Source of the DNA: a virus
Length of the DNA: 33,011 nucleotides
Direction: 5' to 3' (one strand)
Virus record (IMG/VR): IMGVR_UViG_3300048131_000027
Coordinates: 1-33,011 of that record
Below the pieces are notes generated by a model. The model searched no databases. It saw nothing but the letters and a program-made list of their open reading frames with translations, and had not been told where the DNA came from. Both the position numbers and the translations under genes were made by a program. This document shows, piece by piece, positions 1,889 to 15,235 of this stretch. The stretch's first letter is position 1, and each line of letters opens with the position of its first letter.

Positions 1889-2343
1889 TAAAAAACATAA
1901 CAGACTTTAACGCTGATAATTTATATAGAGTAAAAATATCTAGAACACGTTATCTAATAGAACTGCACGAAAAAGCTCTTGTAGATTACGAAACTTTTCG
2001 TGAACCTTGTGGGCGTATATCTAACTGTTTATCTCCAGAAGCATTCCCAAATTTTGAGCCTCATTATTATATAAAAGAAAAATGGTTTGATAAATCTAGT
2101 GGTAAATGGGAATTTATTGTTGCATGTCAAATAGTTTCAACAGATATGGAATATGATGGGTTTGTTACTGATGTAGTACATGTAGGACATTGTGAAACTC
2201 ATATGCATATAACTTACAATACACTTTTAGATGGTGATCATTTAATGTCTCTAGGTAGACTAGTAAGGAAAGCAGAAATTGTATTGCCACAACTCAATGA
2301 ACAATATGAAAAAGAATTAAACAAAGAAAAGGAAACAGTATAA
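1885..2343 (+). CDS. Hypothetical protein, 152 aa, flanked by direct repeats
   Basis: Not recognised. It begins MIKNITDFNADNLYRVKISR. The middle is rich in aromatic residues (HYYIKEKWFDKSSGKWEF) and includes a His-rich stretch, VVHVGHCETHMHITYN (about 108-123), that could bind metal, although no known motif fits. The C-terminus is a charged helix ending NKEKETV. The start overlaps the previous stop as ATGA, and the end overlaps the next start as TAATG. The gene is bracketed by two near-identical 21-base repeats, so it may be an exchangeable cassette. No signal peptide or membrane segment is seen. Confidence 0.7.
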   Translation: MIKNITDFNADNLYRVKISRTRYLIELHEKALVDYETFREPCGRISNCLSPEAFPNFEPHYYIKEKWFDKSSGKWEFIVACQIVSTDMEYDGFVTDVVHVGHCETHMHITYNTLLDGDHLMSLGRLVRKAEIVLPQLNEQYEKELNKEKETV

Positions 2344-2346
2344 TGA
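2326..2346 (+). repeat. Direct repeat copy 2 at gene junction
   Basis: Starts GAAAAGGAAACAGTA and ends TAATGA, differing from copy 1 (1868-1888) only by C to T at the sixteenth base. That change turns CAA into a TAA stop and converts the junction from ATGA to TAATG. It supplies the ribosome binding site and start of the helix-turn-helix gene. Confidence 0.8.
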
Positions 2347-2579
2347 CTAACATAACTCAAATTAAAACATCTCAGGATAAACTAATCTTAGCTCATTTGC
2401 GTAAAGCATCTAGCATTACGGTGAGAGAGGCTATGGTTGAATACAGCGTTAATAGCTTAACTAAACAGATATCTAGGCTACGCAGCCGAGGTCACAATAT
2501 CATATCAACATGGCGTAGCCACCCTATTACAGGCCAACGCTATACAAGGTACACATTATTAGAAGAAAGTGAGGTGTAA
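2343..2579 (+). CDS. Helix-turn-helix protein, 78 aa
   Basis: Small putative DNA-binding protein. The pattern DKLILAHLRKASSITVREAM, then VEYSVNSLTKQISRLRSRGH, matches the layout of the phage helix-turn-helix family often called HTH_39: a first helix, an IT-x-REA turn, and a recognition helix with LTKQISRLRSRG. A short strand-like tail (RYTRYTLLEE) follows, as in winged helices. It could act as an early transcription regulator. The start overlaps the preceding stop as TAATG and uses the AAGGAAA ribosome binding site in the repeat. The family call is from pattern recognition only. Confidence 0.72.
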   Translation: MTNITQIKTSQDKLILAHLRKASSITVREAMVEYSVNSLTKQISRLRSRGHNIISTWRSHPITGQRYTRYTLLEESEV

Positions 2580-2580
2580 T

Positions 2581-2808
2581 ATGCCAAAAGATTATCATCA
2601 AATCAGAATTAAGAAGCAGTTAAAAACTAAGAAAGTTTTAAAGCAAATGTCTGCTGAACAGAGGGAAGCAATAAAAGAGATACAAGAAAGTGTAGCTCAA
2701 TGCATAAACATGATTAAAGAGTGCAACGACTTGTACATGAGTGATATCTCTAAGCTAGAACTGTCTTATCATAACCTGACATGGGCATTCGAAGTGGGTG
2801 ATGTATGA
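2581..2808 (+). CDS. Hypothetical protein, 75 aa
   Basis: The start chosen is the ATG at 2581 (MPKDYHQIRI), preceded by GAGGTG. A GTG at 2569 in the same frame would overlap the upstream gene and is less likely. The N-terminal third is very basic (RIKKQLKTKKVLKQ) and the rest is an acidic amphipathic helix (EQREAIKEIQESVAQCINMI). No family recognised. It ends in an ATGA overlap with the next microgene. Confidence 0.6.
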   Translation: MPKDYHQIRIKKQLKTKKVLKQMSAEQREAIKEIQESVAQCINMIKECNDLYMSDISKLELSYHNLTWAFEVGDV

Positions 2809-2957
2809 GTATATCTGGAGAGATAGAATATTGTGAGGAGCAGATAGAGAAACTACGTGAAGATTTAGACGAACTCTATCTGCTTAAAATGCACAAACTG
2901 GCTACCCTACTTAGCATTAAGAAAAGGTTAGCTAAACTAAAAGGACTGCATGAGTAA
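2805..2957 (+). CDS. Coiled-coil microprotein, 50 aa
   Basis: Starts ATG AGT ATA in an ATGA overlap with the preceding stop and ends TAA at 2955-2957, sharing its last A with the next ATG. The sequence (EIEYCEEQIEKLREDLDELY, later KKRLAKLKGLHE) is nearly all charged or leucine-rich helix with heptad-like hydrophobic spacing, so a short coiled coil is predicted. No family recognised. Exact overlaps at both ends are the main reason to believe it is translated. Confidence 0.55.
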   Translation: MSISGEIEYCEEQIEKLREDLDELYLLKMHKLATLLSIKKRLAKLKGLHE

Positions 2958-3139
2958 TGTCAGAATTAAAACCAATATTTTATTGCCCTGAGTGTTTAAG
3001 TCAGGGTGATAAGAACAAGCTTAAAGTGTTTTATACAAAGGAATACTTTGCATTGGGCTTTCCTAGTATTAGGAGACGCAAGAAGTGTATAGCGTGTGAC
3101 TTTAGAATTAATACAATAGAAATGGAATTGACAGAATGA
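2957..3139 (+). CDS. NrdR-like zinc-ribbon protein, 60 aa
   Basis: A small zinc-binding protein with two Cys pairs, CPEC at 10-13 and CIAC at 44-47. Residues 37-55 (SIRRRKKCIACDFRINTIE) line up closely with the second half of the NrdR zinc ribbon, whose consensus is S-[IV]-RRR-x-x-C-x-x-C-x-x-R-F-T-T-[FY]-E. NrdR is the bacterial repressor of ribonucleotide reductase genes; its ribbon binds DNA and a following ATP-cone senses nucleotides. Here the protein stops just after the ribbon, so the ATP-cone is absent. The phage carries its own RNR at 12722-14617. An Ogr/Delta-type phage zinc finger is the main alternative. Start overlaps the upstream stop as TAATG. Confidence 0.7.
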   Translation: MSELKPIFYCPECLSQGDKNKLKVFYTKEYFALGFPSIRRRKKCIACDFRINTIEMELTE

Positions 3140-3294
3140 TTTATAGATACGTAGTAAATACAATTAGTGACAAATCAGGTAAGCTTGTATGTTATGAGAC
3201 TTGCCAAACAAAAGATGAAGCCTTGAGGGTAGTTAAACGCTACGCAGCAATAAAAGGATTAACCAATAAAATTGAGGAGAGACAACATGATTGA
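3136..3294 (+). CDS. Hypothetical protein, 52 aa
   Basis: Starts ATG ATT TAT in an ATGA overlap with the zinc-ribbon gene and ends TGA at 3292-3294, eight bases into the next gene. The sequence (MIYRYVVNTISDKSGKLVCY, then TKDEALRVVKRYAAIKGLTN) suggests two or three strands followed by a basic helix. No family recognised. Support comes from the tight overlaps only. Confidence 0.5.
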   Translation: MIYRYVVNTISDKSGKLVCYETCQTKDEALRVVKRYAAIKGLTNKIEERQHD

Positions 3295-7170: not shown

Positions 7171-9219
7171 ATGAGATTAGTATTAGATGTAGAGAACACA
7201 ACACAAAGACGAAACAATAAGTGGCATCTAGATCCTTACGAGCAGGGGAACTTTCTTGTACAGGTTGGTATGCAAAATGCAGATGCACCTGACGAGACAC
7301 ACATTGTTAACATAGACCATCAAGAAAAGAAGGATACCAGTGGCGCTGGGCGTAAGCTTATCCAGGATGTACTGGACCTTACAAAGCTTTTAATCATGCA
7401 CAATGCACAACACGATATGATGTGGCTGTGGGAGTGTGGCTTTAAATATGATGGAGCTATCTATGATACAATGTTAGCTGAGTATATACTGTTGAGAGGT
7501 CAGAAGTTACCACTTAGTCTTGACGGTTGCGCCCAACGCAGAAAGCTAGAGATGCAGAAGCAAGACACACTCAAGAATTACTTTAAAGAAGGGTACAATA
7601 CAAATGAAATACCGTTGGATGAACTTAGCTTTTATCTTAGGGGTGATCTCGACACCACTCGTGAGTTGTTCCATGCAATCGAAGCAGACTACGCCGAACC
7701 TGAGTCCAAGTCCTTGCATACAATCAGAGACATTACCTTTAGAACCTGTCAAACCCTCACCCGAATGTACATGTCAGGAATCAGGGTGGATAGATCTGCC
7801 CTTGACCAAGTGAGGCTAGAGTTTGAGCAAGAGAAAGCAGGTATAGAAGACAGGCTACAACAGCAGGTACGCAGGATTATGGGTGATACGCCTATTAATC
7901 TCAACTCTCCAGAGCAAATGTCTCAGGTTGTATTCTCTTGTAAACCTAAAGACAAGAAGGAATGGGTAGAGTTATTCGAACATACGTATAACAAGAAAGA
8001 GTTTAGGGCAGCAGTAGAAGCAAACAGTACTATCATACGTAGGACTAAGGCATTTACATGTCCAACCTGTCAGGGTGAAGGCAAGGTGTATCGTATCAAG
8101 AAAGATGGTACAAAGTTTGCTAGACCTAACAAGTGCAAAGACTGTGATGCTAGAGGCTATCAGCTTAAACCACTAAATCATTTAGCAGGTCTAGGTTTTG
8201 CTGCACCCAGTAAGAAGTGGGTTAGTGCCAATGGTTTCAGCACTGGTAAGGATAACTTAGATGTGTTGATTGGTACTGCCAAGACTAAGAAGATGGACGA
8301 AGCTGTATCATTCCTGACAGACCTGAAGCGTTTGTCTGCTGTTAGTAGCTACCTGAGTGCCTTTGTTGAGGGTATTGACACGTTCACTAAGTCTGATGGT
8401 TTCCTACATGTAGGTTTAACTCAACACATTACAGCTACTGGACGTTTCAGTGGGCGTAACCCTAACATGCAGAACATGCCAAGAGGTGGTACATTCCCAG
8501 TTAAGAAGGTGTTTGTATCTCGATGGAAAGGCGGTCACATTCTAGAGGCTGACTTTGCTCAGCTTGAGTTTAGAGTTGCTGCGTTCCTAGCACAAGATCC
8601 TGTGGCCATAGAAGAGATAGCTACAGGGTTTGATGTACATAGTTATACTGCTAAAGTTATTACAGATGCAGGGCAACCAACCTCTCGCCAGGATGCCAAG
8701 GCTCACACATTTGCCCCTCTATTTGGGGCGACAGGCTATGGAAGATCTAAGGCTGAAGAGGCATACTATATACACTTTAATGAGAAGTATGAGGGTGTAG
8801 CTGCATGGCACAAAAAGTTAGGCGATGAAGCTATACGATTTAATAAGATAACTAATAAGTCAGGGCGACAATATGCTTTCCCTGATGTTAAGCGCAATGC
8901 AAGGGGTGGGGTATCACACTTTACCATGATTAAGAACTATCCAGTACAGGGCTTTGCTACTGGGGATGTTGTACCTGTTGTGTTGATTGAAATGGAAGAG
9001 AGGATGAAGCATCTAAAATCTTGTTTAGTTAATACTGTACACGATTCAAGTGTGGCAGATGTACATCCAGAAGAGAAAGATGAGGTATTACAAATAATTG
9101 AAGACATGAATGATGATTTAACCAACCTGATAGAGAAATCTTATGGCGTTAAAATGAATGTACCACTGCTATTAGAATCTAAAATAGGTCCGAATTGGCT
9201 TGACGTACAGGACGTTTGA
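7171..9219 (+). CDS. DNA polymerase A with DnaJ-like zinc insert
   Basis: Family-A replicative polymerase with 3'-5' exonuclease, 682 aa. GGAGAG precedes the ATG. Exonuclease residues are Asp6/Glu8 (LDVENT), Asp82 (HNAQHDMMW) and Tyr155/Asp159 (YLRGD). Polymerase motif A is ADFAQLEFRVAA (Asp461, Glu466). Motif B is Arg506, Lys510, Phe514, Phe518-Gly519 in RQDAKAHTFAPLFG. Motif C is NTVHDSS (His624, Asp625). Phe514 aligns with E. coli Phe762 and T7 Tyr526; Phe518 replaces the usual Tyr766. Residues 297-329 hold CPTCQGEG and CKDCDARG, a DnaJ-type zinc pair inserted before the palm. From memory such a partial DnaJ domain marks HMO-2011-type phages. It lies where T7 polymerase carries its thioredoxin-binding thumb region. 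Confidence 0.95.
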   Translation: MRLVLDVENTTQRRNNKWHLDPYEQGNFLVQVGMQNADAPDETHIVNIDHQEKKDTSGAGRKLIQDVLDLTKLLIMHNAQHDMMWLWECGFKYDGAIYDTMLAEYILLRGQKLPLSLDGCAQRRKLEMQKQDTLKNYFKEGYNTNEIPLDELSFYLRGDLDTTRELFHAIEADYAEPESKSLHTIRDITFRTCQTLTRMYMSGIRVDRSALDQVRLEFEQEKAGIEDRLQQQVRRIMGDTPINLNSPEQMSQVVFSCKPKDKKEWVELFEHTYNKKEFRAAVEANSTIIRRTKAFTCPTCQGEGKVYRIKKDGTKFARPNKCKDCDARGYQLKPLNHLAGLGFAAPSKKWVSANGFSTGKDNLDVLIGTAKTKKMDEAVSFLTDLKRLSAVSSYLSAFVEGIDTFTKSDGFLHVGLTQHITATGRFSGRNPNMQNMPRGGTFPVKKVFVSRWKGGHILEADFAQLEFRVAAFLAQDPVAIEEIATGFDVHSYTAKVITDAGQPTSRQDAKAHTFAPLFGATGYGRSKAEEAYYIHFNEKYEGVAAWHKKLGDEAIRFNKITNKSGRQYAFPDVKRNARGGVSHFTMIKNYPVQGFATGDVVPVVLIEMEERMKHLKSCLVNTVHDSSVADVHPEEKDEVLQIIEDMNDDLTNLIEKSYGVKMNVPLLLESKIGPNWLDVQDV

Positions 9220-12239: not shown

Positions 12240-12418
12240 GTGACAAGAATTTTGACGTAACAATGCAGGTTACAGTCAGTAAAGATAACAACATCCTATC
12301 GTCTCATGAGGAGTCACACTCGGATGATGTAAAAGATTTAGTGTTGGATACGTTCTATGACGTAGACGATGTTGAAGTAAACAATGTAATAGTAAAAGAG
12401 AGAGAGTTAAATGAATAG
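12236..12418 (+). CDS. Hypothetical acidic protein, 60 aa
   Basis: Begins MSDKNFDVTMQVTVSKDNNI in an ATGA overlap and overlaps MazG by eight bases. Strand-like N-terminus, very acidic centre (SHSDDVKDLVLDTFYDVDDV), then a strand with NNVIVKERELNE. No family recognised. Couplings at both ends support translation. Confidence 0.55.
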   Translation: MSDKNFDVTMQVTVSKDNNILSSHEESHSDDVKDLVLDTFYDVDDVEVNNVIVKERELNE

Positions 12419-12725
12419 TTTAAGAGAGTATCAAATTAAGGCGGTGGGCTTCGCTATATATCCTGCAACACATAAGGTTCTATACCCAACGTTGGGCTTG
12501 TGTGGCGAAGCAGGAGAGATAGCTGAGAAGGTTAAGAAACAGGTACGAGATAATAATTTTAATAGGCATGAAGTAGCGAAGGAACTAGGAGATGTACTCT
12601 GGTATCTGGCTAACCTGGCTAATGATATAGGGTATAACCTAGACGAGATAGCTAATATAAACATTGAGAAGCTTTCATCACGAAAGGAACGAAACAAGAT
12701 ACAGGGATCAGGAGACAACAGATGA
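12411..12725 (+). CDS. mazG: MazG-like nucleotide pyrophosphohydrolase
   Basis: Hydrolyses nucleoside triphosphates to monophosphates and pyrophosphate; phage copies are thought to alter host (p)ppGpp or nucleotide pools. The metal-binding pattern is present: Glu33 and Glu36 in GLCGEAGEIAEKV, then Glu58 and Asp61 in KELGDVLWYLANLA. At 104 aa it is a single MazG domain, unlike the two-domain E. coli MazG. It lies immediately before the RNR gene, with an ATGA overlap, in a nucleotide-supply block. The antisense frame at 12431-12733 is a shadow. Confidence 0.9.
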   Translation: MNSLREYQIKAVGFAIYPATHKVLYPTLGLCGEAGEIAEKVKKQVRDNNFNRHEVAKELGDVLWYLANLANDIGYNLDEIANINIEKLSSRKERNKIQGSGDNR

Positions 12726-14617
12726 ACAATCACTTACCAACAGACTACCAATCATTCATACACAAATCACGTTATGCTAAGTATTATGAGGGTGATGGAC
12801 GTGAATCGTGGGAAGATACTATTGTGAGATACTCTGCTAATGTAATAAGAAACTTGGCTGATCCTGAAACTAAGTTTAAACTGGAGCAAGCTATCTTAGG
12901 CTTAGAAGTGATGCCCAGTATGCGCTCTCTAATGACTGCAGGTAAGGCAGCAGACAGAGACAATACCTGTATGTATAATTGTAGTTACTTAGCTGTTGAT
13001 GATGTTAAAGCATTTGATGAAGCTATGTTTATCCTACTGTGTGGTACTGGTGTAGGCTTCTCTGTAGAACGTCAATCCATATCTAAGCTACCTGAAGTGC
13101 CGTTTCTCTGGAACAGTGAAACAAACATTGTTGTAAAGGATAGCAAAGAAGGTTGGGCTAAAGCGTTACGTCAAATGATTGCATTACTATACAGTGGTGA
13201 GATCCCTACGTGGGACGTTTCTAAGGTTAGACCTGCAGGTGCGCCACTTAAAACGTTTGGTGGTAGAGCGTCTGGACCTGCTCCGTTGGTAGATCTGTTT
13301 AACTTTGTAATTAAGACATTCAAGGATGCACAAAACCGTAAGCTATCCTCACTAGAATGCCATGACATCATGTGTAAGATAGGCGAAGTAGTTGTGGTAG
13401 GCGGTGTGAGACGCTCAGCGATGATCTCATTATCAAATCTATCAGACGACAGAATGCGTCACGCTAAGTCTGGCTCATGGTGGGAGAATGATCCACAACG
13501 TGCATTAGCTAACAACTCTGTGTCGTACACTGAGAAGCCTGACAGTCTATCGTTTATGCGTGAGTGGATGGCGTTAGTTGAGTCTGGCTCAGGTGAACGA
13601 GGTATCTTCAATAGACAAGCATCTAAGGTACAAGCGGCTAAGAATGGAAGGCGTGTTTCTGACTATGAGTTCGGGACGAATCCTTGCAGTGAGATAATCC
13701 TACGCCCGAACCAGTTCTGTAATTTAACGGAGGTAGTTGTACGTGCAACAGACACACTGGACACCTTATCTGAGAAGGTAAGGCTTGCAACTATACTTGG
13801 TACTATTCAGTCTAGCTTCACTAAGTTTCCCTACTTACGTAAGATCTGGACTAAGAATACCGAAGAAGAAAGACTACTTGGTGTGTCATTAACAGGCATT
13901 ATGGACAACCCATTGATGACCCTCAAAAACAAAGGATTGGAGAAAACTCTTGACCACCTTAAACAAATCGCCGTTACTACTAACGCTACTTGGGCTGAAC
14001 GCCTTGATATCCCTGTCAGTGCTGCTATCTGCTGTGTTAAACCAAGCGGTACTGTCAGCCAATTGGTTGACTCTAGCAGTGGGATTCATGCTCGTCACTC
14101 AGCCTATTATATTAGGACTGTTCGTGGAGACAACAAAGACCCGTTGACAAAGTTCATGATTGATCAGGGTATACCTAATGAGCCAGACGTAATGAAGCCA
14201 GATGCTACTACAGTGTTTAGCTTTCCTATGAAAGCCCCAGAGGGTGCAACAGTTACTGCTGATATGACTGCCATAGAACAGCTAGAGATGTGGTTAGCCT
14301 ATCAGCGTCACTGGTGTGAGCATAAGCCCAGCGTTACAATCAACGTAAAGAATGATGAATGGTTCGAGGTCGGTGCATTCGTGTACAAACACTTCGATGA
14401 AATGTCTGGTGTATCATTCCTACCGTTTAATGAGCATACGTATCAACAAGCACCATACCAAGAGTGTGATGAATCAGCTTACCATAAGATGTTAGGTATT
14501 ATGCCATCCAATATTGATTGGTCATTGCTCTCTGAGTACGAGAGTGAAGACAATACATCAGGTAGCCAGACACTAGCTTGCTCTGGAGACGCTTGTGAAA
14601 TTGTAGACTTAACATAA
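12722..14617 (+). CDS. nrdJ: Adenosylcobalamin-dependent (class II) ribonucleotide reductase
   Basis: Reduces ribonucleotides to deoxyribonucleotides with a radical generated from coenzyme B12; likely the monomeric triphosphate-type enzyme. Landmarks are PSMRSLMTAG (65-74), the N-terminal cysteine region CMYNCSYLAV (83-92), the finger loop NPCSEIILRPNQFCN with Asn320, thiyl-radical Cys322 and Glu324, a CVKPSGTVSQL phosphate-binding loop, and a C-terminal redox pair Cys620/Cys625 in ACSGDACE that relays electrons. At 631 aa it is shorter than the lactobacillar enzyme (about 739). No NrdB-type subunit is present or needed. Class II enzymes work without oxygen but require B12, so the host must make or import cobalamin. 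A glutaredoxin 370 bases downstream is the likely electron donor. Confidence 0.95.
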   Translation: MNNHLPTDYQSFIHKSRYAKYYEGDGRESWEDTIVRYSANVIRNLADPETKFKLEQAILGLEVMPSMRSLMTAGKAADRDNTCMYNCSYLAVDDVKAFDEAMFILLCGTGVGFSVERQSISKLPEVPFLWNSETNIVVKDSKEGWAKALRQMIALLYSGEIPTWDVSKVRPAGAPLKTFGGRASGPAPLVDLFNFVIKTFKDAQNRKLSSLECHDIMCKIGEVVVVGGVRRSAMISLSNLSDDRMRHAKSGSWWENDPQRALANNSVSYTEKPDSLSFMREWMALVESGSGERGIFNRQASKVQAAKNGRRVSDYEFGTNPCSEIILRPNQFCNLTEVVVRATDTLDTLSEKVRLATILGTIQSSFTKFPYLRKIWTKNTEEERLLGVSLTGIMDNPLMTLKNKGLEKTLDHLKQIAVTTNATWAERLDIPVSAAICCVKPSGTVSQLVDSSSGIHARHSAYYIRTVRGDNKDPLTKFMIDQGIPNEPDVMKPDATTVFSFPMKAPEGATVTADMTAIEQLEMWLAYQRHWCEHKPSVTINVKNDEWFEVGAFVYKHFDEMSGVSFLPFNEHTYQQAPYQECDESAYHKMLGIMPSNIDWSLLSEYESEDNTSGSQTLACSGDACEIVDLT

Positions 14618-14989: not shown

Positions 14990-15235
14990 ATGTATACTAT
15001 CATAACAAGAGATAACTGTAGCTTCTGTGACATGGCTAAGATGATGCTAAGAGAGTCTAACATAGCCTACACAGAATATAACGTAGAATCAGGTAGCTCT
15101 CAGTGGGTACTAACACTCATAAGACAGGCAAATCATACAACAGTACCACAGATTTTTGCTTCTGATGGTAGCTACATTGGTGGTTATGCAGAGCTAAAGA
15201 AATTTCTTGGTACTTTTGCTGAGGGCGCTTTGTAA
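14990..15235 (+). CDS. Glutaredoxin
   Basis: Small thiol-disulfide oxidoreductase, probably the electron donor that re-reduces the phage RNR. The active site is Cys10-Ser-Phe-Cys13 (RDNCSFCDMAK). The cis-proline is in TTVPQIF (Pro53), and the glutathione-binding-like turn is YIGGYAEL (62-69). At 81 aa it has the usual single-domain length. GGGATAA precedes the ATG, and the stop overlaps the next start as TAATG. NrdH-type redoxins have a similar fold, so the exact class is open. Confidence 0.92.
   Translation: MYTIITRDNCSFCDMAKMMLRESNIAYTEYNVESGSSQWVLTLIRQANHTTVPQIFASDGSYIGGYAELKKFLGTFAEGAL

Follow-up and report, generated by a model that had tools for sequence, protein, structure and literature searches.

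Nearly all bacteria use NrdR as a switch for dNTP synthesis, and phages too rely on a supply of dNTPs. The protein (TIGR00244) comprises a DNA-binding zinc ribbon (PF22811) and an ATP-cone (PF03477). In NrdR of S. coelicolor, each box is bound by a pair of ribbons, in which R12, R26-29 and R37 grip the DNA backbone and D15 and R17 read the bases; the D15A mutant binds more tightly and less specifically, while the R17A mutation abolishes binding (PMC9110341).

Ribbons that lack the cone occur in cyanophages, in RcZahn and in MedDCM phages, and such proteins are therefore already present in databases. Stand-alone or fused cone-less ribbons are found in S-CRES1/2, Yong-M2-251, EBPR siphovirus 2 and MW202554, and a 61-aa protein of MedDCM-OCT-S31-C1 (BAQ94383.1), which is annotated as NrdR, lacks the cone and reads E-T-H at the D-x-R site. 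Proteins of 185-199 aa in MedDCM-OCT-S38-C3 and S-SRP02 combine the ribbon with another domain. UniProt and BFVD also hold stand-alone phage proteins under the automatic name 'Transcriptional repressor NrdR-like N-terminal domain-containing', for example A0A6J5NS71 and A0A6J5KH30. The cone-less ribbons of other phages tend to be situated in early replication or nucleotide modules, with an overlap with thyX in RcZahn, a primase gene in S31-C1, SSB and RusA genes in S38-C3 and S-SRP02, and a helicase gene in Yong-M2-251 as neighbours. A literature search retrieved no study of cone-less phage ribbons; in publications about S-SRP02 and about viruses of the STIV group, NrdR genes are listed without further treatment.

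The window protein and its relatives

The DNA analysed here (the window, 33,011 nucleotides) is a virus record from a marine phage. Its gene content matches an HMO-2011-type phage, since the gene order integrase-primase-helicase-polymerase-RNR is that of HMO-2011, the class II RNR closely resembles the enzymes of HMO-2011, Lentibacter phage ICBM2 and Roseobacter phages CRP-4 and CRP-6, and ORF 7171-9219 encodes a DNA polymerase that contains a zinc insert of the DnaJ type (CxxCxGxG; CPTCQGEGK and CKDCDARG). An insert of this type in the DNA polymerase is a mark of the HMO-2011-type group (PMC9038755). Annotation agreed with the first-pass annotation in finding a class II RNR, a glutaredoxin and MazG in the same phage.

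The protein under study has 60 residues, MSELKPIFYCPECLSQGDKNKLKVFYTKEYFALGFPSIRRRKKCIACDFRINTIEMELTE, of which residues 37-55 (SIRRRKKCIACDFRINTIE) had been likened to the zinc ribbon of NrdR. Pfam matched it to Zn_ribbon_NrdR (PF22811) with an E-value of 9.6e-5 and 22.7 bits, below the gathering cut-off of 27.2 bits, and the NCBIfam model of NrdR (TIGR00244) matched the ribbon part only, with an E-value of 0.0034 and 17.4 bits against a cut-off of 124.65 bits. No significant family was found in PHROGs. Because a single protein alone is weak evidence, we collected its relatives. Each of the 13 sequences first aligned matched PF22811 (best E=7.2e-9), and the profile retrieved E. coli NrdR from the PDB (E=5e-4). 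Alignment of clade A (defined below) with 16 bacterial NrdR ribbons by hhalign gave a probability of 96.6 (P=6.9e-10). When our own profiles were run against the window protein, the Ogr profile scored 2.8 bits, the NrdR profile 15.5 and the clade B profile 53.8, and the last of these found the protein with an E-value of 7e-16 (for 1000 sequences).

The predicted structure led to the same family. An AF2 model of the window protein had a mean pLDDT of 84.8, and the nine best matches in a fold search of the PDB were all NrdR (TM 0.52-0.60); in a viral structure library the model matched stand-alone phage proteins named as having an 'NrdR-like N-terminal domain'. The E-values of the fold searches were modest to weak (0.04; range 0.005-0.07) because the protein is small. 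Pfam detected no ATP-cone (PF03477) in the 60 residues, and the cone was also absent from the relatives examined (typically 58-70 aa), as expected from the earlier claim that the protein ends before the cone. Judged by its profile matches and predicted fold, the window protein is a diverged homologue of the DNA-binding zinc ribbon of NrdR.

The Ogr/Delta family (PF04606), the late activators of P2 and P4, also consists of small phage C4 zinc proteins with the SR...C...C-F-T-x-E layout. In Ogr/Delta, unlike in the window protein, the second cysteine pair is C-x4-C, and profiles lent this relationship no support: no PF04606 match was found for the window protein by Pfam, and the hhalign probability was 21-44 to Ogr/Delta (20.6 for the clade A alignment) versus 97 to NrdR. 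An Ogr/Delta identity was therefore rejected on the profile comparison and on the second pair, which is C-x2-C.

Scans of IMG/VR yielded 22 loci at first, then 72 in the alignment scan and 75 in the clade B scan, with contigs partly shared. More than 100 IMG/VR contigs encode stand-alone relatives of the ribbon, and these fall into two clades. Clade A is window-like, with 58-70 aa and a spacing between the cysteine pairs that is longer by about six residues; clade B resembles the ribbons carried by CRP-901 and CRP-902, two Roseobacter phages, and lies above the PF22811 cut-off of 27.2 bits (CRP-901, 34.5 bits; RcZahn gp96, 39.0 bits). The small ORF of CRP-901/902 and RcZahn gp96 are homologous to the window protein; unlike it, they keep D/E-S-R, pass the Pfam cut-off and belong to phages without an RNR. 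A0A6J5NS71, A0A6J5KH30 and BAQ94383.1 are like the window protein in size class, fold, absence of the cone and phage origin. The clade A phages have two replication backgrounds, one HMO-2011-like (the window and loci L002-L004) and one with a T7-like primase-helicase (L013). Two genome scans revealed no bacterial copies of the phage ribbon family, bar one true host NrdR.

Several members of the ribbon family are unannotated or annotated as Ogr/Delta. Rhodobacter phage RcZahn gp96 (L077:5992-6207) is annotated as Ogr/Delta-like, yet it is an NrdR-type ribbon, and its start overlaps the stop of thyX. Unannotated ribbon ORFs were seen in Synechococcus phage S-CRES2 (L170, near 3001-3204), EBPR siphovirus 2 (L171, near 2980-3290) and ctLwi270 (L172, near 2495-2650). 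In MedDCM-OCT-S38-C3 (L189:1501-2058) and S-SRP02 (L190:1501-2100), the place of the ATP-cone behind the ribbon is taken by a different domain, some 140-155 aa long, and the genes follow those for SSB and a RusA-like protein. Full-length NrdR genes were present in several phage-collection records (H98-H115; e.g. fecal Bacteriophage sp. and Acinetobacter MD-2021a); these are probably host DNA and were set aside.

Within the window, the start of the ribbon ORF shares 1 base with the stop of the gene upstream, and its stop overlaps the start of the gene downstream by 4 bases, as in coupled operons (Table 1). With overlaps at both ends, the ribbon gene belongs to a closely packed series of small genes that lies upstream of an integrase, and this position suggests early expression. 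A scan for promoters and terminators near the gene gave results at chance level. Codon comparison with its relative in L004 gave a dN/dS of about 0.19, and against most other clade A members dS was saturated at a dN of about 0.2. The ORF is thus a real gene under purifying selection.

Table 1. Ribbon gene, adjoining genes and nucleotide cassette of the window
Feature	Position	Strand	Basis or remark
Stand-alone NrdR-type zinc ribbon, 60 aa	2957..3139	+	Pfam, alignment, AF2 fold search, hhalign, residue mapping onto S. coelicolor NrdR (PMC9110341)
Small early gene upstream, 78 aa, phrog_4973	2343..2579	+	Neighbour of the ribbon in the window lineage alone (L002-L004)
Small upstream gene, 79 aa	2569..2808	+	Relatives ~1.1-1.6 kb upstream of the ribbon in clade A L005, L014, L021, L033, L037, L040
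Small upstream gene, 50 aa, charged, probably helical	2805..2957	+	Stop and ribbon start overlap by 1 base
Small downstream gene, 52 aa	3136..3294	+	Overlaps ribbon stop; adjoins the ribbon in L038 too
MazG-type pyrophosphatase	12411..12725	+	85-98% identity among clade A contigs reaching far enough downstream
Class II (B12-dependent) ribonucleotide reductase	12722..14617	+	In 5/5 long clade A records; context, candidate target at most
Glutaredoxin-like protein, member of the MazG-RNR nucleotide cassette	14990..15235	+	Annotation search

Predicted DNA-contacting residues

The zinc ligands of the window protein would be provided by two CxxC pairs, C10-x2-C13 (C10PEC13) and C44-x2-C47 (C44IAC47). 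We assigned its residues to those of S. coelicolor NrdR by alignment. All six positions that grip the backbone in NrdR are basic in the window protein, with R12 corresponding to K23, R26-29 to R39, R40, R41 and K42, and R37 to R50. Both base-reading positions, however, are changed: Y26 takes the place of D15 and K28 that of R17, giving Y-T-K. The window protein therefore shares with NrdR the ribbon sequence, the predicted fold, the two CxxC pairs and the basic clamp, and differs from it in lacking the ATP-cone, in the roughly six extra residues between the pairs, in the Tyr and Lys at the reading positions and in belonging to a phage in which no NrdR boxes were found. At the reading positions neither the window protein (Y-T-K) nor BAQ94383.1 (E-T-H) is like canonical NrdR.

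A similar pattern was seen across 62 distinct phage ribbon sequences. The phosphate clamp was retained in nearly all of them and is, besides the cysteines, the most conserved part of the protein. The D-x-R reader was DSR or ESR in almost all of clade B, and DTR, DTK, YTK, HTE, HTQ or ATG in clade A, many members of which retain D-T-R. That the predicted grip is kept while the predicted reader drifts is the most informative new point of this comparison. The drift may reflect a new target site, and those clade A members with Glu, Gln or Gly at the position of R17 could, by analogy with the R17A mutant, have lost DNA binding of the NrdR type.

NrdR boxes and the association with RNR

Sites were sought with the 16-bp sequence acaCwAtATaTwGtgt, which we take to be the NrdR consensus. 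Pairs were scanned at distances of 30-33 and 40-43 between box starts, with spacers as in PMC12051234, in phage loci. In the window, the best single site scored 17/22 (shuffles, 17-20) and the best pair 31/44 (shuffles, 29-34), in a sequence that begins inside the phage and would miss any early promoter further to the left. Scores in 17 related loci were at or near those of shuffles, with no clear pair. The same scan ranked the E. coli nrdHIEF pair first, with a score of 36. The scan thus agreed with the initial inspection, which had seen no obvious box in the window.

The same class II RNR (83-100% identity), preceded by MazG, was present in all five clade A records that were long enough, across the two replication backgrounds. 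No RNR was found in the clade B records searched, namely the complete 53-kb CRP-901, the related RcZahn and MW202777 genomes, and IMG/VR records of 50 and 53 kb. In the reverse search, 35 RNR-bearing records were scanned whole and a ribbon was found in two; among the 16 with at least 10 kb upstream of the RNR, chosen from contig coordinates, the number was again two. Many of the records are fragments, and all of these are plain counts without a matched null. Since clade B is without RNR and only 2/16 RNR phages have a ribbon, the ribbon is better described as an optional early gene than as a general partner of RNR. Clade A may simply have been inherited together with its RNR.

Coupling of the ribbon to the nucleotide cassette was rejected, as ribbon and RNR do not co-vary beyond clade A. 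The link to nrd control drawn in the first-pass annotation found no support in these counts or in the box scan, and the correlation with phage RNR genes that it had suggested surveying was absent from related phages outside clade A.

Possible functions of a ribbon without a cone

We hold with moderate confidence that the window protein acts as a minimal DNA-kinking regulator, consisting of the NrdR zinc ribbon alone, blind to nucleotides, controlled by dose and directed to an altered target site. Two copies would associate ribbon to ribbon, in the way known for NrdR on either half of a box, and the paired ribbons would kink an AT-rich site. Because the cone is absent, binding should be unable to respond to ATP or dATP and would depend only on the amount of protein. 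The replacement of D15 by Tyr and of R17 by Lys makes an altered or relaxed site most likely, rather than the standard NrdR boxes of the host, and the target is probably a phage or host early promoter. This reading draws on homology, the predicted fold, the CxxC pairs, selection, the lack of a cone and the six basic grip positions, by which the protein would be expected to bind zinc and DNA and to dimerise. It is also favoured by the clade B scores above the Pfam cut-off, by the clamp retained across the phage ribbons, by the sigma-factor-like ORF behind the L013 ribbon and by the early replication or nucleotide modules in which other phages have their cone-less ribbons. Against it count the lack of an operator in the box scans, the Pfam score of the window protein below the cut-off, the weak fold-search E-values, the change of R17 to Glu, Gln or Gly in some clade A members and the ability of zinc ribbons to bind RNA or protein as well. 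The earlier suggestion of a nucleotide-blind regulator of nrd genes survives in its first part, as the best reading; an nrd target is not established. The likelihoods that we attach to this reading and to its rivals are not mutually exclusive, and their total may differ from one.

The ribbon could instead compete with host NrdR, either by occupying its boxes or by forming mixed pairs that are unable to make the DNA-bound tetramer, which would free the host's RNR operons from repression while the phage infects. Pairing between ribbons is required for the NrdR tetramer (PMC9110341), so that a free ribbon could poison it, and there are precedents in the strong induction of the NrdR regulon by phage SpSL1 infection in pneumococcus (PMC6755750) and in the binding of Cp-1 orf6 to host NrdR in an interactome screen (PMC4840434). 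A phage such as CRP-901, which is without its own RNR, would profit from that of the host, and the case is stronger for clade B, which retains D-S-R and the arginine clamp. We nevertheless consider competition unlikely, as neither of the two base-reading residues survives in the window protein and its phage comes equipped with an RNR, MazG and glutaredoxin. The competition at host NrdR operators envisaged in the first-pass annotation is, accordingly, less likely for the window protein than for clade B.

Ribbons often serve as protein-binding modules, and the ribbon might have been repurposed to bind protein or RNA, for example an RNA polymerase or a host defence enzyme, and no longer read DNA. 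Such a role would fit the several clade A members (HTE, HTQ, ATG) that no longer have counterparts of D15 and R17, and a weak match of RcZahn gp96 to the Lar restriction-alleviation family (E=5e-4). We regard it as quite unlikely, given that only the cysteines are better conserved than the backbone clamp and that Pfam gave no Lar match for the window protein.

It is very unlikely, in our view, that the MazG-RNR-glutaredoxin operon of the phage is repressed by its ribbon or owes its timing to it. The presence of the same RNR in 5/5 long clade A records of two replication backgrounds speaks for such a role, but no NrdR box, single or paired, stood out clearly from the shuffled controls, either in the window or among the 17 related loci, and a ribbon of any type was found in only 2/16 RNR records with at least 10 kb upstream. 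Lastly, a late transcription activator of the Ogr/Delta type, like NrdR by convergence, is highly improbable and largely refuted, for although size and overall layout are similar, RcZahn gp96 is so annotated and the NrdR and Ogr profiles are weakly alike (hhalign probability 70), the C-x2-C second pair, the lack of a PF04606 match, the 2.8 bits of the Ogr profile and the hhalign values of 21-44 versus 97 to NrdR all stand against it.

Returning to the preferred reading of a nucleotide-blind regulator, we extend it to the family only tentatively: phages may repeatedly have kept just the ribbon of NrdR for this purpose, with clade A, a marine lineage, re-tooling the two base readers and keeping the clamp, to yield minimal DNA-kinking regulators with new sites, or with clade B dominantly inhibiting the NrdR circuit of the host. 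If so, these widespread and conserved ribbon-only proteins would offer phages a simple way to seize or bypass the NrdR switch without a nucleotide sensor. They would also form a natural experiment on what an isolated ribbon can do and on how D15 and R17 set DNA specificity, testable with proteins of 60 residues.

A few further observations concern neighbouring genes. In the T7-like background of clade A (L013:2551-3396), a sigma-factor-like ORF lies directly after the ribbon (phrog_351, E=3e-4). Positions 1-1170 of the window encode a C5-cytosine DNA methyltransferase with relatives in CRP-9 and pelagiphages, and positions 1172-1516 a conserved 114-aa protein (MGNRATIEV...) without a Pfam or PHROGs match, a homologue of which is found in the RNR phage G045. 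G045 is one of the two RNR records with a ribbon, and its ribbon, of an E-T-R type, adjoins this homologue. This arrangement is seen at L161:1456-1999 in an RNR phage, where the NrdR-like ribbon, a separate type with the E-T-R reader, comes immediately downstream of a 1172-1516 homologue with 63% identity.
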